Of a DNA stretch of 64,000 nt, positions 26,236-59,000 are shown one piece after another. Position 1 is the stretch's first letter; each line of letters starts with the position of its first letter. The stretch covers positions 2,790,001 through 2,854,000 of the forward strand of contig JACATO010002204.1 in the NCBI GenBank assembly GCA_018389105.1. The letters run 5' to 3'. The DNA comes from Nautilus pompilius (Eukaryota; Mollusca; Cephalopoda; Nautilida; Nautilidae). The notes beneath the pieces are model-generated. The model saw only the letters and a list, made by a program, of their open reading frames with translations, ran no database searches and was not told where the DNA came from. The translations under genes were made by a program, and so were the position numbers.

Positions 26236-27557
26236 CAGGGTGCGGCAAAATGATCTGACACATTTGTATTTTTAATAAAAGCCAAAGAGAGTAAAGAACG
26301 AAAAATGTGTTTTTATTTTCGAAATGTACATAGAATGCCATTTTGTTTCATTTCGTTTACAGTTGCCGACATGAATTGGACGGGCGAACATCGCGCTTTC
26401 ATCGTGGAAACCTTTATCAAAAACAACGAATCCGTAATTGCAACACAAAGAGCATTCCGTGTACACTTCAGGCTTGGTAGACATGATCCCGTACCTACTC
26501 GAAACACGATTTTGTTATGGGTTACCAACTTTAGAGTTAGTGGATCAGCATTGAAACGAAAATCAACCGGCCGACCTCGGACTGCCAGAACTCCGGAAAA
26601 TGTGGCAGCGGTAAGAGGTTCAGTCTCCATGACGTTCGGCATGGAAACACGCCGCTGCTCTTAACCTTTCCGATAGAAGTTTGCGAAGAATTCTTCACAT
26701 GGAACTGCAAATGCATCCGTACAAAATGCTGTTGGCACAACAACTCAGCGAAAGAGACTTTAAAACTCGCAGAGCATCGTGTTTGGAAATTCAACAACAT
26801 GTCCCCCATGCATCTGTTGTGTTGTTCAGTGACGAGGCGCATTTTCACCTGTGTGGCAGCGTGAATAAGCAAAACTTCTGATACTGGGCCGAGAACAACC
26901 CTCGTGAGTTGCACCAACGACCTTTGCATTGTCCTCGGGTAACCATATGGTGTGCGGTAGCAGAATTTGGCATTTGGGGTCCTTACTTCTTCGAAGAAGA
27001 CGATGTTACAGTGACTGTGAACTCTGGTCGATATTGTGTGATGCTAGAGACTTTTCTGAAACCCAAATTGAATGAACTTGACGATAAGGACAATGTTTGG
27101 TTTCAACAGGATGGGGCAACAGCCCGCACTTCTCGACATGTGATGGGAATTTTGAGGGAGATGTTCCCCGGTCATTTGATTTCATTGCGTGGTGACATCG
27201 GTTGGCCCGCCCGATCACCTGATTTGAACCCGTGTGATTTTTTTCTGTGGGGATATCTGAAATCAAAGGTATACACTCATCGCCCTCGATCTATTGAGCA
27301 ATTAAAAGATGTCATTCGCCAAGAAATTGCTGCCATTCCACATGAAATGACCCGCCAGGCTATGGACAACTTTCGTGAACGCCTTCGACAGTGTGTGGAC
27401 AATAACGGTACCCACTTGAGTGATTTAATTTTTAAAACCAAATGGAAAAAAATGGCATTCTATGTACATTTCGAAAATAAAAACAAATTTTTCGTTCTTT
27501 ACTCCATTTGGCTTTTATTAAAAATACAAATGTGTCAGATCATTTTGCCGCACCCTG
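26236..27557 (+). mobile_element. DD41D Tc1/mariner-superfamily element, copy 1
   Basis: A 1322-bp element with TA duplications (26234-26235, 27558-27559) and inverted repeats of about 115 bp starting CAGGGTGCGGCAAAATGATC. The transposase begins near [15 protein letters not shown], has a DUF4817-like N-terminal helix-turn-helix, then [13 protein letters not shown] (first Asp), [10 protein letters not shown] (second) and [14 protein letters not shown] (third). I count 41 residues between the second and third Asp. The frame is broken by a shift near 26640-26655 and by a TGA at 26879-26881 just after the first Asp motif. It is therefore non-autonomous, though its ends look mobile. A near-identical copy lies at 30197-31504. 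Confidence 0.93.
26371..27448 (+). pseudogene. Transposase of DD41D copy 1 (frameshift plus nonsense)
   Basis: Three pieces in order: 26371 to about 26640 (DNA-binding part), about 26650-26881 (from [11 protein letters not shown] to VNKQNF, ending in TGA) and 26882 to about 27448 (catalytic core and C-terminus). The first shift falls just after the AAVRGSV linker. All three acidic residues are retained. Confidence 0.85.
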
Positions 27558-28439
27558 TATAATAACCCTTTATAACTATACATCTGTATTGATCCAACTC
27601 CATGTTGTGCATTGTGTTGGCTAAATATAGCCAGTTCAACACACATACTAACTAGTGCTTCTAGGTTGGGGTGAAGTGGTATGCAAAGGGTTAAAATGGT
27701 TTCATAGATATAATGAATTCAGTTAAATTCTAGTACTATAACAATTAATTATTCATCTGTTTGCTGGAAATCATTTCTTCCTATATTTTTAATAGTAAAA
27801 CCAGATTTTCTCAAATTGTGTCACTAAATCTATTTTACTTTGTGGGGATCAATGTGTGTGTGTGTATACATAGTAGACATATGTGGGTAATGTATTATTA
27901 CTAGACTACAAATTCATATTTTAAAAATCCTGCACCATAATACAGGTTTTCAGAAACCTGTATGATATTTAGAATTAAAGTTCGTTATTCTCTTTCCACG
28001 GTGAATTGGAATTTTTTTCTTTTTTTAAATTGCTTTACATTTGTGTTTAGAATTATTGGATTTGGAATCTAAGGTCTCTCTCTCTCTCGCTGCTCTGCGT
28101 CATTCGCTTTGGGGTAAAGAATGGCTGTGTGAATACTTTTATATGACAAGCGACAGCCTATTTAATAGCTTGTAAGCCGACCTAGAGCAGTATAGTGCGC
28201 TTGGTTAGCCGTAACCTGTTTACAGGTGGAAACAAAAACGAAAGCATTTCCAATTTTGGTGAGTTTAGTGGGTAGTTACTCACCTGGTTGTTGGGGGGGG
28301 GGCGACACTGGCTTTAAAAAAAAAAATTATCGCTTCTTCGCAATAAATATTCAAAGAATATCTTATTTAGAAGTTCTTTTTGGATATATAACAGCGTGTG
28401 GTGCAATTTTATGTCCGTAAGCATTTTTATCTCGGAAAT

Positions 28440-29070
28440 ACCTGGAGACATGGAATCAATCATCCCCGCCTGGGCTCTGACCGGCCGGCCCATAGCAACG
28501 GGAGTAACCGGCGGGACGTGTGTGTTCTAACAGTGCTGAGGAAAGTAATTAGCTGTCAGAAATATCTCCGTAATTACCTGACAGGGGAAAAGGAAAAAAA
28601 AAAAAACAACTAATGATGAGATTGCTCGGCCGGTGATACGGATCGCTCGCTCGCTCTAGCAGATGAACTTTTTAATGCTGCGAGATTTGTGGCTGTCGTG
28701 ATGCTAAATCTATAAGTAGTTCGGATTGGAAGCAGAACGGTTGCTGGATTTATGCTGTTGCTTAATCCCCCGTAGGTAAATTATTAGGACTTTTCGGGTT
28801 TATTTAACGGTAGGTTTTTGTTGTTGTTGTTGTACGAATCGCGTGGTGCTAACGACACACGTAAAATGGGAGAGGCGAAATTAAAAATTCCGATGGCGGC
28901 AGATACGCCTGTGTCGGAGGGGATGGACGTGAGCCGGAGTCCTGTTGTTCCGGCCGAATACTCGAAGTACCGTTCACCTTTAGTATCTCGGTATGCTAGT
29001 CCGGAAATGGCGTATAACTTTAGTGAGATGAAGAAGTTTTCCACTTGGAGGAGGTTGTGGCTATGGCTGG
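28440..29070 (+). promoter_or_regulatory. CpG-rich ADSL promoter / first-exon region
   Basis: CpG and GC content rise clearly over the AT-rich surroundings (e.g. CTGACCGGCCGGCCC near 28480, GATCGCTCGCTCGCTC near 28645) and fall again after exon 1. No TATA box can be assigned, and the transcription start is unknown. Confidence 0.5.
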
Positions 29071-29084: not shown

Positions 29085-32000
29085 GTATGCTATATGTACT
29101 CAGTATTACTTGTTAATATGCCTAATTTATTAACAGCGACAGCGTAAATAGATATAATTTTATCCGAAACTTAAAAATTAATAATAAAACAGATTGGAAA
29201 GATAAATTCTTGAGACTTTCTCGGTCTCGCATAGCACCAGTAGTATAATATTTAACTGCCCCCCCCAGGTTTCCATGTCGGTTACTTCCCCTAGACCAGC
29301 TGGCCCATCTTAAAAGCGCCAGTCAGTATGTGTCAAACCTTATATGTTTAATAATCAAACTTAGTCGTGATGAAAAACACGTGGACTTGGAGCAGAAGCT
29401 TAGTGTATCACCGAGGAAGATACTATGCCAAGCCTCTGCGACTTAACGTTAGCCGAGTACAAGATACCTTTATTCGGATAATGGTTTCCAGAGATGAGCA
29501 CCCATGTCCGAATAAAGGTGTGGTCGTCTCTAAACTTTCGGAAATGTCATGAGCTGAATAATACAGATTGTAAGACCAGTGATGTGTTATACAGGAGGTT
29601 AAACACACACCTAGAAAAGCAGCATGAGTTATCGGGGAAAAAAAACAAACAACTCGGCTTCCCCCATAACTTTATTCAGTTCTATAACAGCAGTAAGAAC
29701 AAAATTAAAATAATAAAATAAAATATTACCAAGCCTTCTGAAGGTAAATTATTTCCATAACTTACGCTGTTTTATTCCCGCTTAAGGATCATTTTAGATT
29801 GTTAAGATAGATTTACTCATGCGTGGAGATCTTGTATCGGTGACACTAACTCGCAGGACAGCAGTTATCAAAAGAAATTATGTTATGTAGTAAACTGCTA
29901 AAACCACCACCACCACTATATCCATATAAAAATGTGATATTGCAAAATAAAACCATGAAAATTTAGGCAATCTTCAATTCAGTATAATTTAATTATAAAA
30001 TTTGTGGTAGAAGCAACAAGTAAATTCAATGTGTTGTGCAGAGTCAAGAATAGAAAAACCGGAGCCAAATGTTTAAATGAGAACAAGTGTTAGAGATGGT
30101 TAACGTATACATTATTTTTAATACAAACTTTAATAGCATTGTGGTATTTGTTTTAGAAAATAGAGAATTTTATGGACAACATGAACTGTTAATGTACAGG
30201 GTGCGGCAAAATGATCTGACACATTTGTATTTTTAATAAAAGCCAAAGAGAGTAAAGAACGAAAAATGTGTTTTCATTTTCGAAATGTACATAGGATGCC
30301 ATTTTGTTTCATTTCGTTTTCAGTTGCCGACATGAATTGGACGGGCGAACATCGCGCTTTCATCGTGGAAACCTTTATCAAAAACAACGAATCCGTAATT
30401 GCAACACAAAGAGCATTCCGTGTACACTTCAGGCTTGGTAGACATGATCCTGTACCTACTCGAAACACGATTTTGTTATGGGTTACCAACTTTAGAGCTA
30501 GTGGATCAGCATTGAAACGAAAATCAACCGGCCGACCTCGGACTGCCAGAACTCCGGAAAATGTGGCAGCGGTAAGAGGTTCAGTTCAACCGGAAACACG
30601 CCGCTGCTCTTAGCCTTTCCGATAGAAGTTTGCGAAGAATTCTTCACATGGAACTGCAAATGCATCCGTACAAAATGATGTTGGCACAACAACTCAGCGA
30701 AAGAGACTTTAAAACTCGCAGAGCATTGTGTTTGGAAATTCAACAACATGTCCCCCATGCAGCTGTTGTGTTGTTCAGTGACGAGGCGCATTTTCACCTG
30801 TGTGGCAGCGTGAATAAGCAAAACTTACGATAATGGGCCGAGAACAACCCTCGTGAGTTGCACCAACGACCTTTGCATTGTCCTCTGGTAACCGTATGGT
30901 GTGTGGTAGCAGAATTTGGCATTTGGGGTCCTTACTTCTTCGAAGGCAATGTTACAGTGACTGTGAACTCTGATCGATATTGTGTGATGCTAGAGACTTT
31001 TCTGAAACCCAAATTGAATGAACTTGACGATAAGGACAATGTTTGGTTTCAACAGGATGGGGCAACAGCCCACACTTCTCGACATGCGATGGGAATTTTG
31101 AGGGAGATGTTCCCCAGTCATTTGATTTCATTGCGTGGTGACATCGGTTGGCCCGCCCGATCACCTGATTTGAACCCGTGCGACTTTTTTCTGTGGGGAT
31201 ATCTGAAATCAAAGCTATACACTCATCGCCCTCGATCTATTGAGCAATTAAAAGATGTCATTCGCCAAGAAACTGCTGCCATTCCACATGAAATGACCCG
31301 CCGGGTTATGGACAACTTTCGTGAACACCTCGGACACTGTTTGAACAATAACGGTACCCACTTGAGTGATTTAATTTTTAAAACCAAATGAAACAAAATG
31401 GCATTCTATGTACATTTTGAAAATAAAAACAAAATTTTTCGTTCTTTACTCTATTTGGCTTTTATTAAAAATACAAATGTGTCAGATCATTTTGCCGCAC
31501 CCTGTAGTTTCTCTCTGACAAGAAGATTGTTCGTAGTCTAAACTGAGTTTGCTTGATGTTGAAATTCACAAAAAAAATTGTCTTTTCAAAATAAAGAATT
31601 TACACGAATCTGTTGAGATACTTGCATCCCTGCGGTATAATGGAGTAGTCTCCCTGTTGTTCAAAGGAGGCTTTGTTAATTATATATATATTATAATAAA
31701 CATCACAGAATATAAAGTAAAATTATTTTTTGAAAATGCTTATGGTTTAACTTGAACATTTAATAGTAGAAAAAAAAAAGAGTAATTTCCTATAATGTCA
31801 CTTGCATGCTTCCATTCAAAATTTAAAAGAAAACATGATATTTTTTAAAAATTATTATCTCTGATTGGAAATTACTAGTAAATCGTAAATTTTTGTTTGT
31901 GCTGTAATGATAAAATTTGGCAAATCAGTTATTTTCTAGTTTTTGCACTTTTCTAATTAGAAATATTTTTTCACAGATCTTATTAGTATAAGCTTAATAT

Positions 32001-38000: not shown

Positions 38001-41000
38001 TTTTTAACATAGAGCTAATTTGGTATTGCTTTTATATTCATGGGGATTTTGTGCTAATGTAGTAATTTATTTTGTTGATGGTGCTAAAAGAGGAATAAAA
38101 CACTAAACTTTTAAAAAATGCATGCGTTACAATATTATCTTAACTAGAAAATACTATTTTAACAAAAGAAATACATAAATGATAATTTAATATTTAGACA
38201 TTTTTTGGTTAGCGTTGATATAATTACACTTAAACAAAAATGATCAGAATTATTTTGGTTGATGCAGCAATTATGGTCATTGCTACTTTACATAGCTTAT
38301 ATATTTTTAAACATTTGGTTTTAAGTCATCTTTTGAAACCCTTCCATCATGAAAAAGGTTCCTGATAGCACTTCAAGAAGAAGTTTCCAAAATGTAACGA
38401 GTTCTAGATTAACAGTGCACAAGATACAATTTTGTGGTGAAAAGCTGCCAGTATTTCTATTAAGTTGGATTGGGTTGGTATAGTGATTGTTGTTTAAGAT
38501 ATTAAAATCTATTTGACATTTTCATTATAGAGGTTTTTGTTTGTTTTTTAACAGTTGGAAACTGTCTTTAAAAACAAATGTTTGTGCTGGTTTTTGTTTG
38601 TTTTACTTTTTGTTTAACTGCTGAAGTTCCTGTTACACATTTTTTCCATTAGTGGGCATGTGAGTGGATAGTTTTGATTTTACTTTAGGTTGAAATTCTA
38701 GACAACCTTGTGACAGAAATGGCTGGCTTCAAGGAGTAAGTACAAATTTGGTGAATTATCACAGAGACAGGTTAGAAGTAACTCTGGGCTCTCAGTGTCA
38801 CTAAGAATGTACTCTACTAATGGATGGGGATGGACTAGAAAGGTGCTTAACTCATAAGAAGATGCTATTGTAAATGATAAAATAAAACAAACTTGGGTTG
38901 GTGTAATTGTTTTGGCTTAATTTTCTAATGCAAGCAATGAAGTATTTCATAATACCCACTGTGAAATCTCTGGGGAATGGGTTGTCATGAAACTTTAATG
39001 AGCATATGCAAATCTTGTATTAACTTGCTTTACCCTTCATAATTTTTTATGGATTTATGTTTACTTATGTAAAGCCTTTTTTGTGGAATTTCTGTAACAA
39101 ATTTCTAAACTAATAATTTTATTCGCTGAGCAGTTTCAAAAAATATTGTTTATAAGTATGCATTATGATCTAGTTGCAATATATTAAGTTGAAATGGTTA
39201 AATGCTGCTGAAAGATTTTATCCAATTGTTAAAGAAATTCAGATTTTTAAAATGATACCAAGTTTATGACAAAAAGAACAATCCATGATATTCAGGTGAA
39301 GAAAGGAAGGAAAAAATTTTCAATTATCTTTTGAGATTACGCATGTAGGATAAAAAGAAAATAAACTGTTTTATTGTAAGAGATTAAAACCATTGAGTCA
39401 AGATTTTGGAATTGTATAAGAAACAAAACCATTGTTAGATTCTCTATTTTGTCTTTAGGCATTATGGCATATGTGGACAAACATATAGTCGGAAAGTAGA
39501 CATTGACAGTCTCAGTTCTCTTTCCAGTTTGGGTGCCTCAATACACAAGGTAAGAAAGAATTTTGTGATTTTCTTTTTTTCTTGAAGTAGTATTAAATAA
39601 AGCATGAAATCAAAATAATAATTTATTTTAGATAAACTTGTTACTAACAAAGACAGATTTTACTTTCTTAAAAAAAAAAGGGAAGGAGAAGCAAGAATGC
39701 AAATATCTTGAATCTGTATCTACTGATACAAAAAACATAAATTACAACAATATTTATCCAGAAAAATTATTTAAAATTAATATTTCTTACCTCTTTTAAT
39801 CAGTCAAAAGTATAAATGACATGGTTTTGAATATCAGCTTGTATGTTGTAGCTACACTATTTGTGTATCAATCTGCCACCAGTCTGGAGATATATACTAT
39901 AATCCAAGAATTTCTTTGTTGGACATTTTAATTCATGGATTGTTATCTTTTTCTAAATTTTTAGACATTTCTGTGATCAAACCTTAGATGTTTGTCTAGA
40001 GCCGGGGTGGCCAGATTTTAGAGCCATATGATCTACTTTTTTCAAAGACATCCTTTGAAGATCTACCAGCATAATTTCTAATCTCACCTAGTGATACATT
40101 TAAATATGTCGCAGGAAATATGTCCCATACTTACTGATATAGATGAAGAGACAAAAATGTAACAAAAGCACTTTATTGGCAAATATTATTATTTTTATTA
40201 TTTCAGTTAAAATACACCTTATTTATAGTAACTAGTCAAGAAAAAAGACAAGTATTTGTACATTCAATGTACACTGCCCTCATATGAGTAAAAAAAAAAT
40301 GATATTTTAAAAACAAAAAAGAACCATTAAACACTTGATCAATATTGTGTCCAAACTTCAGCTTCCTAGCTGAAATAATGCCTGTGACTGATGGAATAGT
40401 GGAAGGCAGTGTACAAATATATTTTTTATTTTAATTTCGAAAGTATGATTTATTTCCTATGTATTGTGATGATTTGTGTTGGATGGTGTCTGTAAGCTTT
40501 TCATACTCAAGACAGTAGTCGCTTATTGTGAGCCTCAAACCGGCTTCTGCGTGGTCATCAGTCATAGTGGATCAGTATTTAGACTTAATAATCTTTATAT
40601 GTGAGAATGCTGATTCACAAAGGTAGGTGGAACCAAAAAATGCAGTCAAATGAATGACATGTTCAAGTATTTGATATTTTCCAGCAGTTATTAGGTTCCA
40701 AAAGTTTCCCTCTGAGGCTCTGGATTTGACTTGAATGGTGTTTTGTAAAATTAAAATTTCATCCTCAACTGTTGTGTCCATGTGGAACAGTGATGCGATT
40801 CTCAGGGCCATTCCATCACTATCAGTTTTCACACCAAATGGAAAGCACACAAATGTTGCCACAAGTTCTAGTAATGTAAAGTCTTGAAACTATCTGTTAA
40901 ATTCTGATATAACATTTTGCACCTGCTCAATGTAACAACTATTATCAAGGTGTGCATATCCTAAAGTTGTAGCTCTGAAATGGTGTTTTTAAAATTCCGC

Positions 41001-44000
41001 AATTCGTGCTGCTGTAACTGTAAAGATAGCAATTGGAGTTTTTTCCTAAAAGCGCTCACAGAGCTAATCATGTAAACAACATTTTTATCTTTACGTTGCA
41101 ACTCTAAATTCAGTTCTTTCAAAATGGCTGTGAAGTCAGTTAAAAAAGCTGGATCTAAAAGCCATTGTTTGTCTGTAAGTTGCATGTATTCCTCATTTTT
41201 AGTGACCAAAAACTCCTTAATTTCAGGTAAAAGATCCTTAAATCTTTGTAGAAATTTTCCTCTGCTCAGCCATCTAATATCATTATGAAGTAAAAGGTCT
41301 GTGTTCTGCTTTGTTTTCTTCTTATTGATCATATTCAACTTTTAGCGCATAGAGCCTGTTGATGAATTATGCAGTGATTATAAAGAAAACTGGGAAACAT
41401 ATCATCACCTTTCGAAAAGGCAATAAACCTGTTGGCTGGGCCAACCATAGCAGATGTGTGTTGTTAATGAATTCCTTGAATATATTGACCCCTTGAGTGT
41501 GTTCTTTTAATAGTAGTATTTTAAGAAGTTCCTCTTTAAAAGTCATGTCTTCAAACATCATTCTAATAAAAATACATAACAGCGATGTGTTAATCACATT
41601 TGTAGACTTATCAAATTGAAACAAAAAAAAAATACTCGTCTATGTGTCCTTTTTTTCAGTTCCTTCAAATCTTCAGCCATTCCTTAATAGCAGACACTGT
41701 TTTATTTTCAAAATCTGGAAACAACAAATCTGCTGCCTCTAGAAAGGCCTCTTTAATATTGTTCCATCTTGAAAAGGTTTAATGTGTTTTATAAGTATGC
41801 CACTTATTCAGAATGATGCTGTTGTTGCTGCCTTTGTTCTCATGTTGGGCCATGTAAAAAAAAAAAATTTTTGTCCAGTAAGCTGAATTTAGTTCTCCTT
41901 TCGAAGTTCATTTTTAACTGGAAAATTGCTTTCATAGCTCTTGTGAACAGTTTTAAAATACCTTTCCACAAATTTCCTTTTTTGATAAAAGATAATATAT
42001 TCAGAGCAGATAAGAAACACATTTTGAATTATTCATCGTAAAAAAATATTCTTCCATCCACTCAGTATAAAAATGATAAGTTTTCAGTTTCTTAGAACTC
42101 ATTTTAGAGGTTAAATTTTAAGATTTAAAAAAAAAAAGTTAAATTTACTTGTGGTCTGCTAATGACTTAGTATCCAAGTTTTTTCTCTGTAGGTGCAGTA
42201 TTTGTCTTTTGAAATGATTAGCCAGTATGTTCGCCGATTAGGTGTTTCCGACTAATCATTGAATTTTTCAAATCTCTTCAAGAAGAGCAACGAGAAAATT
42301 GAGACAATCTGAGCATTATAGATTAGATTGCAATCACCCCCCCCTGGCCTAGAATATGAGTGAGTAAGGCAAACTGCTTCTGTCAAACCAAGTGAAGTAA
42401 ACCTTCAGCTCAGCTGTGCACGCGCATGTAGGGTAGAAGAGCAATTACTCTTTACCACAGCAATTACAAGTCTCAGATGTAAAGGAAAAATAGTGCTGCT
42501 GAAATAGCAGTACTTACTGAAATTGTTAATATACATTTCGAGTATTACAAAGTACTGTTTTGCATTGAATGCTTGTAGGTCAAAGCCAACAAGATATGTT
42601 TAGTGCATTATCTCTTGAAAAACCATTTAAAATTTGTCATTTGTTTGCAGTCTGAAAATAAATAAGATTTATACCCATCTTTTTGACAAATTATCAATGT
42701 GTTCTTGCCTGATGTGAATGGAGTATACAAACTGGCCATCAGTACATACATAATGAATGGAATAAGTTAAACATTTTTTTGTGCCAAAAGAAAAAAAAAT
42801 TGTTTTACATTTTTAAAGAGGGGGATGGATAAAAAATACCAGATTGTTCTAGTACACTGAACAAAACAATATAAGGATGTTTTGTATGTGACCTCTTGCA
42901 TGACTGTTTGCTGTTGCCTTGGTTATGTGGTTTTATCATTCTTTGTCAATCCAAAGGGTGAGTCATATAACATTTCTCATGCTGCATGGGCCTCTTTGTC
43001 TATAGTATGGTTAAATAAGTATAAAACCTACAAATATTCACACAATGAAGTTATTAAAACTTCAGCAATGACTTGCCAATGAGCAGGAATATCTAGCTAA
43101 ACTAGGCCATAAACTGGAAATAGATAAATGTGGTTGCAAAATGTGGTGCAGCCATCTTTGGCAGAGTGGCTTAGTTCATAAAAGACCTGACAGGGGAGGA
43201 CACCACAGCAGTACTGATCATTATGATACTACAGTTACCTTGAGCCAAGTGATGCAACTATCTTTTCACATTCTATCTAGAACAAATTATCATCATGATG
43301 CCACTAAATGCATCAAACAATGTCTACACAGGCAGCAAAATGAACTGTTAAAATTATATCTATTTTTTAATTAAGGAAAAATTATTGTCACATAATGTAA
43401 AGAATTTATATCAACAATATTCTTATATTGTTTTGATGTGTTTTGAAAAAACTACTTACTGTTATCACTACTCTTTGAAAGGTTATATATTATTCAGATT
43501 TTAGTCTCGTGAATTGTGCCATCTCAGTTTATTTGTAGGATTTTAAGTCACTGCCATTATTTATTAGTCACCTTTTAAATAAAGTATTTAAATTATGTAT
43601 TAAGTATGTTATATTCACAATGTCTTGCAGCTGAAGCTTCAAGAGAACATGCTATAGAAATGGTGTTGATATGTAATGCAGATTTTTTTACTTTACTTCT
43701 AAAATACAAAACTGTCCCCACAAATTCAAAAAAATATCTCACAACCAGTTACTTCCTTGGTCACTGTTCTTAAGCTCAGAAGTTTTGCTGAATTGAGTTT
43801 CTTATGATGACTTTAGATAGTCTGTTTTGCTGCCATCTAACAGTGAGCTTAAGACAAATCTCAAATGTAATCTAGTATTTCAGCTTATTATTGTCACAAC
43901 TAAAAGTAGTATTGGCCTTTTCTGTGTGCATGTCAATTACATTTTGTAATCCACTTTCAGTGTGAGAAATAAAAGCATAATGGTTTATGCAAAATAAAAA

Positions 44001-47000
44001 GTTCTTTTAGTTCTTATTCATGAAGTCATGCCACTTCTAGTATACCGAATAACATCAGAGGATTATGGAAAGCTTTCTTCAATATTACTGAAAAGAAAGA
44101 CAAACTAATGTAGGTGTGAGTACATGGGCTTGCTTAAAACCATTTTAAAATTACAGATTGATCAAAATTATAAGCATCAAACTTTACAGAAGCTTCCAAC
44201 TGTCATGAAAGGATGAGGATGGTATAAAGTTTGTCTGGTCACTGAATCAAAAGCTTTTGTAAGATTGATAAATGCTACATGCAATGGGCACTTTTTCACT
44301 GCATTTTTCCTAGAATTGTCTCAATGTAAAGACCATATCTACTGTATATTTTCCAGACCAAAAACTGTGTTGACTTCAAAAATAATCTTGAGAACCAATG
44401 TCAAGCTAATTGATTTATTAACTTTTTCCAACTATGCCCAAGGAAATGGCTTGTTATACAACATCACAAAGTTAGCATTTTTATTTGGCTAAAACGTCTA
44501 CATACTAACATTAAATCATATAGTTGTTTAGTTACACTCCATTCACCATACTTAAGTTGTTCAGGTGATGTTCCATCTGTTCCTGGCACTTTTAAAATTG
44601 TGAGGTGTTTAATAGCTATGAGGGTTCATAAATTGGTTCAATATTTAGTTTATGCCTAATACATATCTTTTGGATTGGAAGTATAATTTCCATTACTATA
44701 GAGAAATTGAAAATGCTCAACCCACTGGCTTAGTTTAGATTTTTTCTCTGATCAAATTACTATTTTCATTGAGAAATGAAGCAACTTTTTTTGGTACACA
44801 GTCAAATGCTGCCTTGATACCACTATACATTCTGAAAGATAGCAGGGGTGGGGATTCTATCAAATTTAACCAGTATTTCTGAATGCAATTTCTTTCTCAA
44901 GCTGAGATAATTTTGTGCACTTGTCTAACACCTTCAGCCATTGCTTGTGTTTGATTTCAAGATATTTAAAGCACAGTTTTTGTTGTGTTTTTTTTAGCTT
45001 TGACAGCAGGTTACATCAATACTATTACTAAACCAATCAAGTTGTGATTTATTGATTGTACGAAATATTTCAAAGGCTGTATCAAGGAGAGTTTTGTGAA
45101 AGCATAAGTTAAAGTGGTGTGGGAAGTCTCACTTTGGGAAGATATTTTTTGAAACTGATTCATTGATTCAGGATGCTTAACATTCACCACTTTATCCTTT
45201 GTTTGTTAATAATGATGTGTATATGGAGATTAATTTATTAGGATTGGTGTTCCAACTCCCAACACCCAAAATAGATTTTCAGCTTTTCACTATAGTAACA
45301 GCCTGAAAATGACAGAATGATCATGAAGATGTACAAATGCAATGCTTTGTTTACTTAAAATACATTGTGTTTTAATATAAAACTGCAGTTGGTGTGATAC
45401 ATGTAGCAATTACAAATGGTGATATCCAGGAAGCGTAAGATTGATTTTAAAACATAATTTTAATGAAGTTTGGACAGAAAAATACTTCATCCCTCAATCA
45501 GAAAATTGTTTGTTTTGATATTTAACCAAAGGATATTGGTTCCAAAGGAGTATAATGTAAAATGTCACTACAAAACTGTGCTGATAATTATAAAACATTG
45601 AATGGAAAGCAGCATGATAATAAAATTCAGTAACTAAAACAAGCTTTAGTACACAGTCAAGGTGTTTCCACCAAACCAAACCAAACCAGGTATCTGAGGT
45701 AGCAGTGAAAGCAAGCTATCTTTTGGATTACATATTGCTAAAAAAAGTAAGATGATTTCAAGGATTGTATAAAAGACTGTCCAGAAAATACCTCTGCTCT
45801 CTCATCAGTTTGTCCACTCAGACAATCAAATGTAACATTGCTGAAATATGTGATCTCACTGAAGACCGAAAAAAGTAGGGTTGCATATTTTGTGGCTTGT
45901 TAACTGTTGGTGGATGAGAGCATAGATGTAAGTAATATTCATACATGGCATTGACAGCAATTTCAGAATAACAGAACTGGCAACAATGGTAAGCTTTCAC
46001 AAAACAAAAGTTATAGATTGTTTTTTCAAGTAGCATTAACTATTGTTCAGATGATGACAAACTTGTTGCATCAATCACACATGGTGCTCTGCCATGATAG
46101 GAAAAAAGTCAGATTCACTAGAACTGGTGAAAGAAAAGCTTCACAAAAATGTTGCCATTGCATTATTCACCAAGAAGCTTCATGTAACAGGTTGTTGGCA
46201 TGGATCATGTTATGACTGGTTTGATGCCAAACACCATTAGTTTCCTTACCATATTGAAGTGGTTAAGCAACAGAAAAGTTCTGGAATGTTTCTTTGGACT
46301 ATGACTTGAAATAAACAAATTTATGGTTGACAAGTCAAGAAATATTCCACAGTAAACAGATGGTGCGATTGGCTTGTTGATATGATGAAATACTTTAATG
46401 CTCTCGGTACCCAGTTATAAGGCTCTGGTTTTCAAGGTCTGATCAAAAGGTTCTGGGACATCATTTATTAGGGAAATTCAGTTCTCTATATGGATATTAA
46501 ACAAGTAGCATTGTTGGCAACACTTGCTGACATCACACCTCTGACAGTAAGCTACTACCTTGTCTTAATCTTGAGTGAACTGTTTTGTGCAGATGTCTTT
46601 ATTTTTCTGCCCCACTGAAAAATGTCTGACTTGAAGGAGCAACATTTATGCATCAAATTGTGTGTGAAACTCTGTAAGACAGTCATGGAAACCTATGGAA
46701 TCTTTAAAAACTGTACTTAGGGAAGCTCTTGGCTGTTAGAAAACATGTGAATGGTTTGCTTTGGTTTAAAAATGGCTGAACTTCTGTCAATGATCTGCAC
46801 TCTGGCTGCTCATCATCTTAGCCCAGTGAGAAATCAGTTAGTCATGTTCATGATGTGATTCATGGTAACAGATGAAAGACTATTCATAAAGTGGTAAAGA
46901 AGTTTGTATCTCCTATGGCATATGCTAAACAATTTTGACTCAAGATTTGGGAATTAGGTGGGTCTTGGCAAAGTTTGTTTCATGAGTTCTCACTTTGGAA

Positions 47001-50000
47001 CGTCATCTCAGTTTTTCAGTAACTCATTGATCATGCAGTGAGTGATGAAAACTTTGTCTGGCATCATTACAGGTGACAAGACTTGAGTTTATGACTACGA
47101 ATGAGACTAAATGTGAGTCATCTCCGTGGAAGACCCCATCTTCACCTTGACTAAAGAAAGCAAGACAGATGCACTCAAATGCGAAAATGATGATTGTGTT
47201 TCTTGACAATGAAGGTGTTGTGCACCATTAGTTTGTTCCACAAGGTCAGGCAGTGAATTGGTGGTTTTATTTGGCCATTCTGAAATGCCTAAGAGATGCA
47301 GTTTTACAGAAGTGGCTTGAAAAATAGAAGTCTGGTTTGTGAATGTTGCACCATGACAATACACAGTTACTTTCAGCACTCTCCACATGAGGATTTTTGA
47401 CCAAGCACTCCATTTCACTGTTTCTCCGCCTACCATATCAGATTTGACACCCCAATCTAAAACATATCCTAAAAGAAAAGAGATTTCAGGATGTGCCAAC
47501 CTTCATCCAAAATAAGAGTACCAGTGATGTTTCAAAAAAGGCAGGATCATTGGAATCACTGTGTTCAATCAGCGACTACTTTGAGGGGGATAAATTTGAT
47601 TAACTATGTTGTCCTTTAGTTTTGTAAGAATAAGTTTAGATTTGGAACTCTTTTGATCAGACCTTGTACTTGAACATGAAATTTTTGGCAGAATAGTGTT
47701 TCACATCAAATTACTACTGTTTGTAAACCACTTTCAGAACTTGGCACATTTAACCACTTTGCATTATTTCATAACAAATGGAAAAGCTTCAGTGCAATGT
47801 AGAGTTGAAATCAAGATTTACAGATGGTGTTTCAAAATGGCTCTCATTTACAGCCAGAGAGATTTTCCCAACTACATACTCTTTTGGACAAAAGATTTTA
47901 TCTTTGTTTGTTTACATTTATGCTTCCAAATATTTTCTATCATGAAAATTAATAAAATTGGACATAGCATAAAAACAACAAATTTTGCATTAACTATGTA
48001 TTTTGTGGATATGCATACCTTAAGGCTAAAGAAAAAACATCAATAGTTAGGCTATGTATGTATGTATAACTAATTCATTGCACTAATAATAGATCACTGA
48101 ATTTAAGTAATTTATATATTATCAGCAAAGGATTTATTCTTGGTCAATGGTGAGTCTGGCCCATCAGTTAACCCTAGTTCTGCCTGCAGTGTGATGGCAG
48201 AGAGTTTGGGGATCACTTTATTTATGACTGGCATGATAAGCAAACATAGTGAATACCAGCAGAATTAGGGTTAATAAGTTGGAAAGTCCTGGGCTAGAGT
48301 AACTACAGCTTCTCCATTTTCTCTCTTTCTTTTTTACTCTAATGTTGTAGTTTCTCAAAAGTAGAAGTTTAGTGTATTTTGTTTAGCCATCTCATTTCCT
48401 GATAAAATTGTAAGCTTGCTGCATGCATGACAGGAAAAAGATATTAAAAATGTAACAAAATAATGTTATCAACATCTGAATCTTGTGAATAATCTTACAG
48501 TAATTTTGCAATGGAACTGAAGTGATGTGAAAAATATTTCTCTAATATATGACATCTGGTTTGTCTGCTGGTTGAATGGACTTTCAAATTTTTTTTTTTG
48601 CACCATAAGATTAAAAAAAGAAATAACTAGCAGAAAAATTGAAACCAAATATTGAGTATAAAAAGCAAATTTTTATGTTTGAAAAAAGTGAGTATAAAAA
48701 TATTTCTTTGTACCCATATCTGATAATTCCACTCAGATTCTGTGTTCCTATATTGTGAGAGGAAAATTTGTTAAATAATATTCTCAGGTTCACTTTAATA
48801 TTGCTCCCCATTTGTCGTGGAGAATTTTTTTGATTTTTTCTGCCATTTTCTTGTCAATGTTCAGGCTTTCCTCAAGTTCACCATCTCTTGCCATCTGGAT
48901 CATTTTCTCTCCAGTTATTTTCTTCTCTCTGATATCTTTCCTCACCGTTGCAGGCAGGCTGTGTTTCCTTGCCCACAGCAGCATGTATTTTACAGGATAG
49001 TACATGACACATCGTGGCCAGCCAATTGCTTCATAATGCCAACAAGACTCGGCTAGATAAGAGAAAAACAGCATTAAAAGTTTTGTCTCAAGACAGAGAG
49101 CCTATTATTAGGAGAAAAGATAGCGAAGTTTATTTTTACTAATGCTGATAACTTTTTATCAATGAAAGCAGCCAAAAAAAAGAGAGAGAGATTTAAAGAT
49201 ATTTCTGCACAGGTTAGCAGCCCATTATGATACTACTAGATGAAAATTTAAAAAAAAAACAAAACCACTGAAAATAATAGGTAAAATAAAAATATCTAAA
49301 GCAGCACCTGGAGTTTCAGCAATTTTAATGTTGCAGAAAGAAAAGAAAAAACCTTAATCAGTGGAAATTAGATATTTTTAAAAAAATTAATGTTGGTATT
49401 GCTGTGGGGAAGAATATGGATAAAGACAAGAAAAAGATAATTAGACGTGACATCAACCTACCTTATCCAGTATTATCCATAGGTAAAACTGATCAACTTA
49501 AAAAAAGAGGGGGACTAGAACATTTTAAGTGAGTTAATTTATTTACCACTGTCTATTTTAAAAGTTGTGTGTACCCAGTGGATGTCAAACTTTGAGAAAG
49601 GTTAGATTCATTTTGTGGTTACGAGGATACCAGAAGACAACATGGCTAATGCGGAGGCACCCCTGGGAAGAGAAATATTTATCAACACAATTTTTAAATT
49701 GTTGCTGTATCGTATATATATGTGCTTTCAATATCTCAAGATACTGTAGACAGCTGATGCTGACGCTGGGATTTGAACCAAGAATCACCGTTTGCCCCAC
49801 ACTGGAAATTCCTGGTTCAAATTCCAGCGTCAGTGTTAGCTATCTCAGTATCTTGAGATATTGAAAACAAACGCATCTATTTGTTGTTGTATCACTAATG
49901 ACTGCATTTGCTAGTAATTTATTCCTCTCATTCTATCCAAACCCACCTGCAAAAGTTTTTCTAATACTGACTTGTGCTGCAATTTTACCTAGCTTGTAAT

Positions 50001-53000
50001 TATGATCTCTAGTGTTAGAAACTGCATGTAGTAAAAAAAAAAAATTGTCCATGCACTAAAAATCTGATTATTTTCAGAGCCTCTATCAGGTCCCCTGAAG
50101 GTCAACTGAATAGCCTTTCTTAAATTAGCATATTCAAAATGTGTACAAACTAAGGACTTAATGATATAACTATGATGTCTTGTTTTTTGATATTGCAATT
50201 TCATGGTTTTCATAAGAAATGAAATTTGTTGTTCTTCACGTCTAAGATCTTTAAGAATCCTTTTCTAAAACACTTCTACTAACTTATTATTTTCCACAAT
50301 ATAATGCTTTAACTTTTTCAATATGTGGAAGCTAAATATTATTAATTAACTTTATTAGAAGAAAAAAAATTGTAGTTGTAGGCTGCACTTAACAAACTGT
50401 CCAAATGTTTGTTGGTTAATTTATTCTGTATTATTATATTCTGTAAAAAATTAAGCTTGTGCAACATATCCCATTGGTTCACCCTCACAACTTGTATTAC
50501 TCAAGTGGATGGGGGGTTAATAATGCAACACTTTCACATCTGCTGTCCACTGAAAGATTCTTTGTAGATAACAGATGTTCCTGCTAATATCTCTGCACAA
50601 TGGTCAGGGCTATTGTAAATCTGCCTTCTCTATGTCAGTGCCCCCACAGTCTAATTACAACATTAAAGCACTGAGTTTTATGACATTCATATTTCTACAT
50701 TTTGCCTTTTTAATTTATATATTTTTTTTAAATTTTTCATGCAGTTGAAGAGTACTGTTGTTTTTTGAGATTTCTTTTTTCATTGGAGATACCAGTGTTA
50801 ATGGAAGTTTTGATAAAAGAAATACACATTGCTTTTAAGTCAGTTTGCTTTCAGAATAATCCCTTAGTTTTTTAAAAGATGTATTTCTTGACTGTATAAA
50901 TTTAGAATTATCTTAATTTCTATTGAGGTCCATGTTTTTTCTCCAACATCTGAAAAAATAACTCTTGACTGGTTCTCACCTTGACCACCACCAGTTGTAC
51001 CCAAGTAACTTAGGTAGATATCTCATGGCAGTGAACCAAAAAAAGGGCTGTCTTCTACCACAAGGTCAGAATAGGGTCTAAAAAGCCAGTGAGGTCCACT
51101 TTACTTATTCTCATGGCAAACAAACTACATGATAATAGGCAAGAACTTATTCTACTTTTTTTTTTTTAAAAAAAGACAAACCTAATTCTATGGTAAATTA
51201 TCAGTCTGGCTATTCATGCATTAGCATTTTGTTTCATTAATGCAAGCTAGGTATTTGTGTCTGACCTGACTTTCACCACTCCCAGATTTTTCTCAGGTGA
51301 ACCAGCCTGATAACAACTTTTACCTCTGTAATGGTTTTTAATTACAGTAGCCCATTTAACCAAAGCTCAACAGGGGCTGGGGAGGCAACTAACTTAAGTT
51401 TACAAAATTTTCTAAAATGTTACTAATAGTAAATTCAAAATTAAAATGAGTTTACTCCTGAAAGACAGGCAGTGGTATATAATTATATAAATGACTGTAA
51501 ACAAATGTTTCACATTTACATATTAACCCAAACAATTAGTAGAGGATCATACTGAGCTTTATTTTAATAAAATTCTTTTATCAATTCGCAAAATGGTCTT
51601 CATTTTCTTCTAATGGTAAAAAAGATCTCATTTCTGCCTTTGGTCAAAATGTGAGCTTCATGGCGATACTGTTATTGATAAAATATGGCTTATTTATGGA
51701 ATGTTGCAATCTGCTTTAGATAAATGCTAGAAGATTCTAAGGTGGCAAGACTTTTAAAAACCATCTGAGAGTTCATCATCATGTCTAAACCATTTTTTGG
51801 GTGAAAATGATCCACAATCACAAATAGCTGAATATCCTCACATTGTTCCTTGTGTTTTTTTAGCTTTGAAGTGAGAGTATAAAAATATGTCAGAACTATA
51901 TGAACACTAAGGTCACTTTGCATAGTCATTTGTGGTGGTCTTGATAAGAGAGTTTTAGTCCCTTTTCAACTTTGAGATTCACTTGATAACTTCATCTTAG
52001 TTTTGATGTGCAATTTGTTACTGGAATGATGTGTCAAAAGATGTGATACAAGGAGGAAGTTCTGCAACTTTTTTATAAACAAGAAGAGAAACTGATTTCT
52101 TATTTCTTTTAATCATATTTCAAATGTTCACAACTTGCACCCTTTCATTATCTAACAAAGTAATTAGTGTCAATGATAATTGGTGACTTTTGTTAAGAAA
52201 CCATTAGTTCTTTTCATATGTGCAGTAAATTGCAATCAAAATCAATCAATCCACTGTCAACTGACAAACTTTAAGTTATAAAGATAAATTAACATGTAAG
52301 TGCACTTCAAGGGACTAAAAAAAGATGCCTTGACCATCTGACTTTGATGTAGAACAAGTTGGGAGTTATCCATAGTTTATATAATGGGAGAGTCAAGTAT
52401 TTTGCTGGGACGTGTGTCACCTACCATCTGACTTTGATGTAGAACAAGTTGGGAGTTATCCATAGTTTTTATAATGGGAGAGTCAAGTATTTTGCTGGAA
52501 CGTGTGTCACCTAAGGTTAAACAGTATATTTGGGCTATCTGACGGAATTATTGAGCCTGCTATATGTAGGTAAGTAAATTCGCACTCCTCTGAGCCACAC
52601 CTATAGCCCTGTGGTCACTGATAAATAAACACACTTTTCATTCAAAATGTGTCATTTTTTTTTTTTTTTTTTACACCTGTAAATGTAGCAGTGTTTGTCA
52701 GAGTTCGTGTCCATTTTCAGGAAGGCTGACATGAAATTCAGTGATAACTTGTATATTTATTCTCCTTTAACAATTTCTCTCTCCACCTCATAGATGGTTG
52801 GGGGACGCCAACAAATGAGTAATAATATATTGGATGCTAAACTTTCAGCAATTTTCCTTGTGTACAAATTGTCTCTGGTTTGTTAGTTTAAATAGATCCA
52901 TGCTGGTCTCAGGCTTTGACATTGGCAAATTTGTCAAAATGAAGTTAGTCTCTAAATCAACTTTCGTTCATTTTTAACATACCCTTTTTTTAATGTTGCA

Positions 53001-56000
53001 CATATCTAAAATGACAGTCAAATGAATAAACAAATCTACTTAAAATTTGTTTGTTTGTTTTTAAATTTGAAGTATTTAGTGTTTAACATTTTGAATATTA
53101 GTTTAGATCCCATGCTTGGAGTTTGAACTGTCTGTAAATTGAATGTCAGATTATTGCACATTTAATTTGAAGTAAATTCTAAATTTCATGCAGTGGGTAG
53201 TGGCAATTTGACTTGATTAATGTTTTTAGAAAAACACTAATAGTTAGAACAATCCCTTCTGCCTGCTTTTTTTTTGGAGGATAATGAACTAGATATTAAC
53301 AAGCTGGGTGGGGGTCAGGTGATATTGTTATAATTTGTGCACTTAAAATACTCTGTCAGAAATAATTACGGTTGGTAGGTTGGGATTTTAACTAAAGTTT
53401 CTGAATGCCTTGACTAAAACATCTTGTTAATGTGACAGTTTTGCATAAATCACTGAGAGAAAAAAAAAGTCGCATGGATTAGGTTTATCTGACTGATAAT
53501 TTTCGGCGCTATCTCTGGAAACAGAATTTTGTCATGCTTAATAATAAAGTTGAATTTAAAAAAATAAACAAACTTACAGGCATCATCAAACTGGAAACTT
53601 GTCTCCCAACCACATCCTGGCATGGTGCATATAAAGCGTTCGGTTCCATATGATTCTCCATTCATCCGGATCCCAGCCCGCTCTTCTAGCCGCTCAAGGT
53701 CAAAGCTGCCGCAGTTATAACATGCTGCAAAGCTGCTGTTCCAGAAGGCTAGCCGAGTGCTGTCGGCCTGGTCTCCAGCTGAGAACTGTTCGTTCCACAC
53801 CACCATGTTGGGGTCTAGAAAATTAGGAAACCACCAATGATGCCATGTTTTTTCTACTAACTGTGCGAAGTTTCCGCTGGCGACGACTCCTACAATTATT
53901 TGTATGGTGATTGTGCCGTAACAGCAAAAGTATACAATCCACTGTGTAGATACTCAGTAAAATTGGAGTCCTAAATTTAGAGCCACCATCTGATAAAATG
54001 GGGAAAATTTAAAGAAAGAAAAGTGGGGCAGCTTTCTGTCTACATAATCAACTGTTGTTTAGCTGTTGGCTGCGTGCAGTATAATATGCCCCAGAGGTGT
54101 GAGAAAGAAATTAACTAATGAACATTTGGGAGAGCTACCTGACGAAAACTGAAATATCACATCAGCTCTGCTCACAAAACCAAATATGAAATCCCAAGTA
54201 TTTCTTTTTTCTTCATAAAACGTCGATGGTGCACTTTTGTACAGCAGTAGTGAAGAAATACATTAAAAGAGAAAATCTAGAAGTTTTTTAAATGGGTTTT
54301 TGTTAATTCTATTTTTTTTTTTTATCTACCTAAATGAAAATATGAAAGAAAAGCTGCTGTTTTATGCTCAGAGTTTGTCGGAGAGAGACTAGCATTTTTG
54401 TTTTCCCTTTGTGATTATTTATAAATGCCATGAGACTGACTACGTTTACCACCTGTGCAAATTTACCAGACCTGTTGAAATGCTGGTCTTCTGTAAATAC
54501 ATCCTCTCTGTTAATGTTGTCGTGGGGAATTTAAATGCCTCTATGGGAGTTAGGATACGGCTGCTGCTAATTCCCCCGTCTGGACTTGTATTTTAGCAAA
54601 TAGTAAGTGCTGTAATCGGGTGAAGGCTGGTTATCTGTTAATTACGAAGTCGCTGTGCGGGTTAAGGGACGATCTATTTAATCGGGAACCGGACGGAGGA
54701 GAGCCGACCGCCCATCACCTGTTGTTTGCTCTGTGCTGACTGACGAGGGGGTGACACCGGGAAATCGGGCGAATGCCTTCACGTAGGGCTCGCGCCAGTT
54801 TACCTGCTGATGTTTCTGCACTCTTGGTCCGTGTTTACGCCCGCCTTCACGAACGACAGGTGAGAAGGGAAGGGGAGGGGAGGGGGTGACGTCTACTGCA
54901 TGCGGCTGGCGGACGGATGTAGGCTAAAAATAAACACAGCCAACTTACCTTCTGCACAGGTGCGAGCCGTCTGCATGATCGAGCAGCGGGCCGAAAACTT
55001 GGCTTTCTGACACTTTCTGCTCCGAGAAGGAAAGCACAGCTTCAGGACGTTACTCATTCTGCGTGATGGTGCTGATGGTGGTGGTGGTGGTGGTGATCGA
55101 GCCGGGCGAACCCTCTCGGCGCATCCACCGAGGAATGGCTGAGGCGAAGTTCCGCCGAGACAGTCAGCCTTGAACTTCGCCGACGATGTTCGCACCTGCT
55201 GGACCTGCCGGTACAGGCAAGTGTGTGTGTGGGGGGTCCTCGGCGCTGATGTAACCGCGGATGATGTCACAGTTTATCTCACCTTCCTCCCTTGGCTGAG
55301 CTCGCGGTGGATCTGGTGAACGGACGGACGGACGGGGTCGTCGCTGACATCGATCATCGCATCGGGTGGCGCTCCCACCTCGAGGTGGACTAGTTCGGCG
55401 GGATGACAGCCCAACCCCCCCCTCTTTTTTTTTATAAAGGTGAACAATAAAATCCATTCTGTATTTAAAAAAAGGTTAATTATCTACGTGGCTGCTTATC
55501 GCCTGTAATAATAGAGTGGCCTAACAAGGCACGCGGGACTACGACTGACTTGTGGGGGCGTTAGAATAGCTTAACTTAATGTGTGTGTGTCTGTGGTGGG
55601 CGTAGATCCCATCTGTTCCCATTATTTCTCCTCGTGTTGGTTTAGGGACACAGATTAACCCTCTTAATGGAGAAACTTCCTGGGGGGTGGGGGGACAACA
55701 GAGAGATCGATACCTTCCACCTTCTCTATTTACTGTGTCTTTCAGAAGTTTTGCGGTTCATGGGGAAGGGAGATTGGATGGGATCTTGTAAACACATCAG
55801 GGTGATCCTTAAACTGAGAAGGACATTTCCACCAGTCGACTCTCAGTATTAAATTTAAACTTTTGGTGTGAAAGAAAAAGAAATAAAACAAAGATTTCAG
55901 AAACAGGTTGTAAGTACTCTCTGATGGCTCGGTAGCAGAGCTGAGAGGTCAGGGCTTTACTGGGTCCCCGATTTGAGTACATTTTTAGAGACCTCCTCCA

Positions 56001-59000
56001 TCTCCACACTATTCTTCAGTATATAGTGACAAGAAGGAAACATTTCCCCTGTTTACACCTTTTTGTTGTTTTTAACATGCTCACCTTCATCTTCAGGCAC
56101 CCCACCTCCTTAAAAAAAAAAAAAGAAAAGCCAAACGAGAGTTCGGGGTTTAAGATGTGAGCTTTTAATTAAAACCAATCCAAAACTGCCAGTAATGGTT
56201 CTCTAACAGGCCCCTTATTAGAAATCAAGGTTCTGTTATTTTTCTTCAAGCCATCTCGCTACCGGAAAGGGTTATGATGGCATCTGTACCAATTTGTTCA
56301 TTGTGTGTGACCTCTAGATAGATTGTTAACTTCTGCCTTTATGTCTAAAATATTTGTCATCTACTGCATTTCTATTATAATTATTATTTCAATGATGCAA
56401 ATAATATTTTTTAAAAAAAAAATGGAAGGATATTATAACCTAGAGGTATACAGCAGATCTTCTGTGTGCTAGGAACGAACAGTGACACGATGTGATCTAT
56501 GTAACTTTTGGCCTGTCGGCAGGTTCCTTCTGACAGTGCCTTAGGGAGAGTCTGAGGTCTTCTTTTTACATCACTGTGGCCTGTAGTGTATTGTAAGCTG
56601 CTATTCCTTTAATGTAGTTACAAAGAAGTGTACATTTTTTTTTGTTGTTGTTGATTTGTAGAATTTTAAGAATTTGGAATGGGCTGACTAAAATAGATAT
56701 AGTAAACCAGAGGGGTCAGAAGTTGTTAAAATTTATATAAAGCCATGTTCACTAAAAAAAAAAAAGTATGTAATCTTTATTTATTTTGAAAATATTTACA
56801 CTTTCTGCTTCCATTGGTTAGTGAATTTTAAAAATCCTTTCTAACAGAACATTTATACACCTTGTACTTGACACTTAGTGATATGTGATGCTCTAAAGAA
56901 CATTTTTATCTTTGGCTTCTAAAAAGATTGCCAAACCGGGCAACCAAAGCTTCTGCAGCCCTGGCCTAAGAGTGCTGCTAAAGATCCTACCAGCTTCTAG
57001 GCAAATGACTTCTATAGGTTTTATCTATTCTAACCCCCAAATCCTTTTTTCTGCTTTTGTTATTGCAATAATTTATATTAATAGTAAATTTGTTTGATGC
57101 TAGGACATTCACTCTTGGAAACATTGAATTTCATTTGCCATTTGGTAGACCAGTCAACTAAAACAATTAGACTTTATGCTAAACCGGGCATGTATTTAAA
57201 AAAAATAAGCTCAAGAAATGAATCCTGAGATATTCCACTAGTGACATTCAGAATCTCATGTCAGAGTTCTCTATTGCAACTCTCTAAACTGTTATATATT
57301 TCAGTCTATAGTAAAAGATTACCAACCTATGCAACAGTTTTTACATTTCTCTGCTAAACATCTGTACAGAACAAGATCAAGTGCTTCTGACTTGTAAATT
57401 TGCAAGAAACAAACAAATTAGTTACACAGGATTTTAATGAACAAAAGATAAGCTGATTTTTTTTAAGTGAGTTATCTTATCAAATTTCTCCTTTATTATA
57501 CTTTACAAATATCTTGCCTAAAATCTGTGTTAAACCTACTGGCAAATTGGTAATGCAAATACAAAACAAACACTGGAATTGTAACTTATGCAGTATAGTC
57601 TTTAAAATTGCATTTGGTGGTGGAAGTGTTAACCAGTTTAAATGGTTTTGTTTGCTTTATTGTCCTCAATTCAACAGGGTATCTTTACTAGGTGTTACTA
57701 CTAAATTATGATTCATTCCCCATTAAATAATACTGTTAGAAATACGGTACTTTTTCAAGCAAGCAGCCATGTTTGCCCTTTTAATTATTAGTTTTAAGTA
57801 GTACTTGCATCTTTTAACATGTCATCAGTGATCCAGCTGGACGTGTCTAACTTTGTGGGTGCTGGCCTCCTTAAAATTGAGATTACAGTCACCACCCCTC
57901 GACAACTTCTGCTCAGTGATTTTGGTACCGACACCAAATAAATTAGTGATGTGTGTTGTTAAAGCTGTGAACTACAATGTTTCTTCAAAAAATTAGAATA
58001 AAAAGTTATATAAATGCACCCTGGTTATCACGATGAGATTTAATAGTATAGTTAAAAACAGATTTTTTTTTCTTGCTTTGCTAAAATCATATATAAAAAA
58101 ATGAGATTGCTTTGTGGAAATGTAAGTTTGTAAAGAATGAAAGCCTTTAATGTTAAAAAAAAAGAAATAATTCTGTCAAACTGGCTTTCCAAATGATTAC
58201 TACAGGAAATTCTAGCCAGATGGTGCGTCTACTGTTGAATGCTATTTCATTCCAGATTTGCTCTGACATTCGCATCTTGGCGAGCTTTAAGGAATTAGAA
58301 GAACCGTTTGAAAAAGACCAAATTGGTAAGTGAAATGCTGAAGAGTAGATTTTGCTTAAGGTGGTTTGACCTACAAATTCACATGCGCGCAATATTTCTG
58401 AGGTGGAGGAATTTCATTCAGAAAGTGACGAGAAAAAAATGTTTTTCTGAGTTAGTGGTCTAAATGATTGCTTCTGAGAAATACTTGAGCTAAGTACAAC
58501 CTTTTGCGAGAACAATATATCCATAGTGCACCAAATGTAAGTGATGATTTTGTGGTTTCTTGCATTCTCGTGGCTACAAAATTGTTCAGGCAATCTTTGT
58601 CTCCAAACATTTATTTATGAACTACCATTTATTTGGTCTAAAAATTACACTAATGTTTTGTAATTCTACAGAAGTGAGTTGGTCAGGGAAATGTTAATAA
58701 AATATTAAGTGGTTTCAAAACTTTTGTTGGTTTTTTAACGCAACAGTGATACCTCATGTCATTGTTGAACATGAAGTTTATTAATCAAAGTAAGTTCCAT
58801 CACAATCAATGCACTTCTGCCAATGAGTTACAAGCATATTTATACCATTTTGAAAAAAATCTGGATTTTTGGACTCAATAAACTGTTGGAAGGCAGTTTC
58901 AATTGCTACTTGGTTGGAGAAGGATTTCATATGGAGGAAGCTGTTGAGGTGTTTGAAAAGATGGTAGTCTGTGGGAGAAAGGTCTGGTGAATAGGCTGGG

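Follow-up and report, generated by a model that had tools for sequence, protein, structure and literature searches.

The 64,000-nt stretch of Nautilus pompilius DNA analysed here (positions 2,790,001 to 2,854,000 of contig JACATO010002204.1; referred to below as the window) appears to hold a genuine small protein-coding gene that lies antisense within an 18.7-kb intron of the purine-synthesis gene ADSL of this mollusc and has its own CpG-rich promoter; judged from the sequence, we put the probability of this reading at about 0.7. An earlier note on the same DNA had drawn the nested gene as three exons on the minus strand, and an antisense protein-coding gene in the ADSL intron is still the best reading, supported by the intact exon chain, the coding scores of exons 2 and 3, and the CpG peak.

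Host intron and exon chain

The host gene was located by tblastn using a human ADSL sequence. Ten of the 12 matches within the window were ordered on the plus strand between 28968 and 63975, spanned residues 13–368 at 50–82% identity and flanked the nested gene, in agreement with the host named in the earlier note; the other two (E 7 and above) were rejected as chance. The C-terminal ADSL_C domain was found farther along this contig, also on the plus strand and about 1.2 kb beyond the end of the window. Since the exons ending at 39549 and starting at 58256 join into a peptide that fits ADSL, the host intron was placed at 39550–58255, and every exon of the guest lies inside this single intron on the opposite strand.

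Re-splicing the three exons gave a chain of 609 nt encoding 202 aa without an internal stop, and reproduced exactly the coordinates, splice sites, phase and length first proposed. Both donors are GTAAGT; the acceptors, ...TTTTCTAG and ...TTATCTAG, each end in CTAG behind a pyrimidine-rich tract. The exon 1 ATG has an A at –3, and a further methionine, Met40, is at the start of exon 2. Residues 1–35 from exon 1 form a basic N-terminus (8 K/R, 0 D/E), a segment that could serve targeting or nucleic-acid binding, depending on the uncertain exon 1. A strict search for chains within the ADSL intron (GTRAGT donors and pyrimidine-rich acceptors, both strands) returned a single three-exon chain of at least 600 nt, which lies on the minus strand; the plus strand gave none. 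The minus strand of the intron has only 5 GTRAGT donors, two of which belong to the nested gene.

Table 1. Positions within the window of the putative nested gene, its flanking signals and the host intron.
Feature	Position	Strand	Evidence or content
Putative exon 1	55057-54949	minus	109 nt; ATG, 36 codons + 1 base; donor AAG/GTAAGT
Putative exon 2	53814-53578	minus	237 nt; zinc-ribbon-like Cys pairs C68/C71, C99/C104
Putative exon 3, including stop codon	49052-48790	minus	263 nt; charged, SAM-like helical tail
CpG-rich 5' region, likely promoter of nested gene	54501-55500		CpG count
Candidate poly(A) signals	48116-48338	minus	AGTAAA 48338, AATAAA 48222 and 48138, TATAAA 48116 (first bases)
Host ADSL intron	39550-58255	plus	18,706 bases, GTAAGA...TTCCAG
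ADSL exon directly upstream of host intron	39459-39549	plus	tblastn match and splice junction
ADSL exon directly downstream of host intron	58256-58327	plus	3' end as in tblastn match

CpG-rich 5' region and 3' end

The CpG content of the window was scanned in 255 windows of 500 bases, for which the median count was 3 CpG. The interval 54751–55250, at the 5' end of the nested gene, had the highest count in the 64 kb (39 CpG; observed/expected ratio (O/E) 0.92; G+C 0.59), so that the CpG-rich 5' region suggested earlier was recovered as the densest peak of the scan; other peaks were found at the ADSL start (28501–29000, O/E 1.39) and at transposase-like open reading frames (ORFs) at 26.2–27.5 kb and 30.2–31.4 kb. 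On the minus strand, a TATAA motif precedes the nested-gene ATG by 379 bases. Candidate poly(A) signals, identified as motif matches only, occur about 0.46–0.68 kb beyond the stop. The CpG peak and the TATAA motif suggest that the nested gene likely has its own CpG-rich promoter, from which it would be transcribed independently on the minus strand.

Coding statistics

Coding potential was scored with a codon model built from 4223 codons of the same genome, taken from the open frames of 11 of 33 loci (L006–L038). For comparison with background ORFs 361 ADSL codons were added; for the comparison with random codons from the local flanks, ADSL was omitted so that only the 11 loci served, and the main transposase-like ORFs were excluded. 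The background comprised 116 ORFs of at least 60 codons from intergenic and intronic DNA, some of them transposase-like, and these averaged –0.155 bits per codon with a maximum of 0.183. Exons 1, 2 and 3 scored 0.247, 0.302 and 0.149 bits per codon, respectively; per codon, none of the 116 ORFs lay above exon 2 and four lay above exon 3, and when best 60-codon stretches were compared, none exceeded exon 2 (23.3) and five exceeded exon 3 (15.0). Against random codons from the local flanks exon 2 gave z 6.0 and exon 3 z 5.7, with 0 of 5000 draws as high for either, and the true frame of exon 3 was the best of its six. We take exons 2 and 3 to be real on these statistics, and exon 1, the weakest part of the chain, to be likely but less certain. 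It is accordingly exons 2 and 3, not exon 1, for which coding statistics raise the case above that made by phase and length. Transcription, splicing and translation in the form drawn seem highly probable for exons 2 and 3 and rather likely for exon 1.

Predicted protein

The protein is, as far as its sequence tells, uncharacterised and without a family name in the libraries searched. Pfam returned only DUF7119 for the whole protein (E 0.12) and for exon 3 (E 0.031), both under the cut-off, and NCBIfam returned zero matches. With a limit of E 10 the PDB search listed 8 sequences, the best being KLF15 (2ent) at E 0.042 over 24 residues, with FACTWPGCGW as the segment matched; the other seven were at E 0.75 or above. 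No Pfam or NCBIfam family reached its cut-off and none of the PDB chains fell below E 0.04, so that the earlier statement that no known family shows this combination holds for these collections.

The cysteine positions given in the earlier note were exact: two CxxC-like knuckles are present, C68xxC71 and C99xxxxC104 (CxxCG and CxxxxCG), and from this cysteine pattern alone a zinc ribbon within exon 2 is plausible. The knuckles and the short KLF15 match resemble zinc ribbons and C2H2 fingers having the Sp/KLF-like FxCTxPGCGW knuckle; however, C2H2 histidine spacing was not seen in the nested protein, and the KLF15 match covers 24 residues only. The tail is charged (17 K/R and 10 D/E within residues 131–202), and residues from about 131 to 200 align by eye with the five-helix SAM pattern. 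We examined this likeness with a SAM profile made from 14 domains of the same genome (14 of 30 fetched loci, out of 66 matches). The tail scored 5.2 bits over a 29-residue core, matching locally in the ITGExxxxM...LeesLnI core of the SAM domain (PF00536, PF07647); 63 of 5000 shuffles scored at least as high, the best reaching 14.1 (4822 of the shuffles received a score, and the remainder were counted as below). As its likeliest role the protein might tentatively be pictured as a small adaptor, in which a zinc-stabilised ribbon (C68, C71, C99, C104) would precede a helical, SAM-like domain for interactions, although we think this role somewhat doubtful.

Evidence against the gene as drawn, and alternative readings

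Several results weigh against the gene as it is drawn. Three hundred block-wise order-2 Markov sequences, each mimicking one strand of the ADSL intron, served as nulls for the strict chain search: four of them reached 609 nt, the longest being 633 nt. By phase and length alone a comparable chain is thus expected at about 1% per strand, or 2–3% for both strands, which is modest evidence; being worth only about 1 in 100 per strand, phase and length are weaker support than the earlier note assumed. When the donor rule was relaxed, so that 59 donors qualified in place of 5, the minus strand of the intron gave 56 chains of at least 560 nt. The acceptor of exon 2 is used by 22 of these, that of exon 3 by 11, and both by 4. 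Several other first exons, with weaker donors, can also be fitted, and the longest leads to a product of 253 residues. The assertion that the chain was unlikely by chance stands, then, insofar as it is the sole GTRAGT chain of at least 600 nt in the intron; it is undercut by the four nulls as long and the 56 chains with lax donors. Upstream of the start there are four ATGs between TATAA and the initiator, at 305, 300, 293 and 67 bases.

The remaining adverse points concern the codon model and the protein. ADSL, when held out, reached no more than 0.07 per codon, which shows how blunt the model is. By summed score one longer background ORF (27.5) exceeded exon 2 (23.6), and in exon 2 two of the five alternative frames, both holding stops, scored above the true one, from which the exon 2 signal appears mostly compositional rather than frame-specific. 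Exon 1 codons were uninformative against the local flanks, with 4227 of 5000 draws as high. The Pfam search with exon 2 gave zero profile matches at E up to 10, zinc-ribbon families included. Genuine SAM domains, scored leave-one-out (n=14), gave 15.4–57.8 bits versus 5.2 for the tail, and the nested locus was absent from the 66 SAM_1 and 52 SAM_2 matches listed in its genome at E up to 10, within the filters of those searches; there was no significant match to PF00536 or PF07647, and with so low a score the SAM likeness is a lead, not membership.

The adverse results bear most directly on exon 1. The gene may be real with its first exon misassigned, so that coding starts elsewhere and 54949–55057 is 5' untranslated region or absent; codons of exon 1 that are no better than local background would be expected from this, lax donors permit first exons in frame with exon 2 (for example 55457–55196, in the CpG-rich region), and Met40 is available as a start. 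We nevertheless regard this arrangement as unlikely, as the donor at 54949 is one of only 5 GTRAGT sites on the minus strand of the intron, the exon 1 ATG has its A at –3, and the exon joins in phase.

The CpG peak does not depend on coding, and some 1% of one-strand nulls yield a comparable chain; both would suit an antisense non-coding RNA or a regulatory CpG element, with a real promoter and an incidental reading frame. The failure to find a homolog would suit it as well, although the collections searched were of prokaryotes and viruses: patterns derived from the protein gave 6 matches in viral contigs and 33 in prokaryotic genomes, none of which was confirmed, and as these collections are not intended for animals the absence of relatives says little on conservation. 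We consider such a non-coding element highly improbable, because exons 2 and 3 stand out from the AT-rich intron as exon-like islands whose joined frame is open, and the protein they encode carries paired cysteine knuckles.

A search of the genome (728 Mb, 2558 contigs) listed a single match for each nested exon at E up to 10, and nothing thus points to a repeat family or a multi-copy transposon gene. This lack of a second copy, together with a frame intact over three exons with GTAAGT donors, leaves a very slight chance indeed for a decayed or fortuitous chain (a pseudogene or transposon remnant) without a product, even though the ADSL intron does hold other decayed ORFs with what we take to be transposase-like residues. 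An antisense protein-coding gene with its own promoter therefore remains our preferred reading.

Neighbouring elements

The window gave zero Rfam matches at gathering scores and zero tRNAs (scanned in a bacterial setting). Intron 2 of the nested gene contains a palindromic element at 49723–49869, built of two nested inverted repeats with 38- and 24-nt arms; GGTTCAAATTCC within it is presumably tRNA B-box-like. At least 82 matches to this element were found in the genome (40 of 397 candidates were scored), often on both strands at one place, and by its sequence it is a dispersed foldback repeat family resembling miniature inverted-repeat transposable elements. The same intron has a tandem duplication at 52333–52512 with a 90-bp unit, 98% identical.

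Two closely similar ORF sets (26254–27562 and 30215–31391) flank the ADSL start; their DDE_3 matches are weak and below cut-off, their CpG counts almost equal those of the promoters, and we assume them to be mariner-like transposase. Decayed ORFs in the ADSL intron at 40572–41639 (minus) and about 46600–47600 (plus), pieces of which were scanned without Pfam support, presumably represent hAT/ZBED-type and mariner-type transposase remnants. The ORF at 9110–9508 (plus), a possible upstream neighbour of ADSL, had zero Pfam matches at E up to 10 and reads, we presume, as an exon of the phosphatidylglycerophosphate synthase PGS1. Elsewhere in the genome, the haemocyanin beta-sandwich family PF14830, a marker of molluscs, gave 14 matches, with none in 14 control genomes, as expected of a molluscan genome. 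Contigs C557 and C1362 each carry one haemocyanin locus in which 7 beta-sandwich matches occur; the two loci have opposite orientations on their contigs and may be paralogs or alleles.

Nesting within ADSL

Nested intronic genes have been measured over 1058 eukaryotic genomes, molluscs being named in a figure legend of that study, which gives 2357 such genes for one ctenophore (PMC8527503); about 63% of nested human genes lie on the opposite strand, as quoted in PMC3192792. As nested genes are common in animals, antisense nesting in an ADSL intron is an ordinary arrangement. The guest resembles the nested intronic genes of Metazoa in being a whole gene within one intron, antisense and, as drawn, multi-exon, and differs in that its protein is without a family name in the libraries searched; only this uncharacterised protein is unassigned. 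Among papers judged by title and start of abstract, none was found describing a gene nested in ADSL.

The earlier note had also raised a coupling of the two genes by transcriptional interference, which is possible in general but for which the sequence here offers no support. In human systems nested genes and their hosts are reported to interfere with each other, mainly when arranged in tandem (PMC3192792); PMC8467205 cites interference as a driver of nested-gene expression divergence in Drosophila and describes some properties of mammalian nested genes as in line with it, but states that expression divergence of nested genes in mammals is not statistically different from that of unnested pairs. 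It appears improbable to us that ADSL is regulated through antisense interference from the nested gene and that this gene is retained for that reason. Its location would probably be explained by the room that long introns offer, rather than by regulation between the nested gene and ADSL.

Quite unlikely is a new family, possibly confined to molluscs or lophotrochozoans, in which a zinc ribbon and a divergent SAM-like domain would have been long kept antisense in the ADSL intron, with a CpG-rich promoter tying expression to purine synthesis. The nested gene is a probable addition to the gene set. Being oriented against its host within a long intron, it is of a sort that automatic annotation can overlook. 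Should its protein prove to be conserved, this would define a new small family for characterisation.

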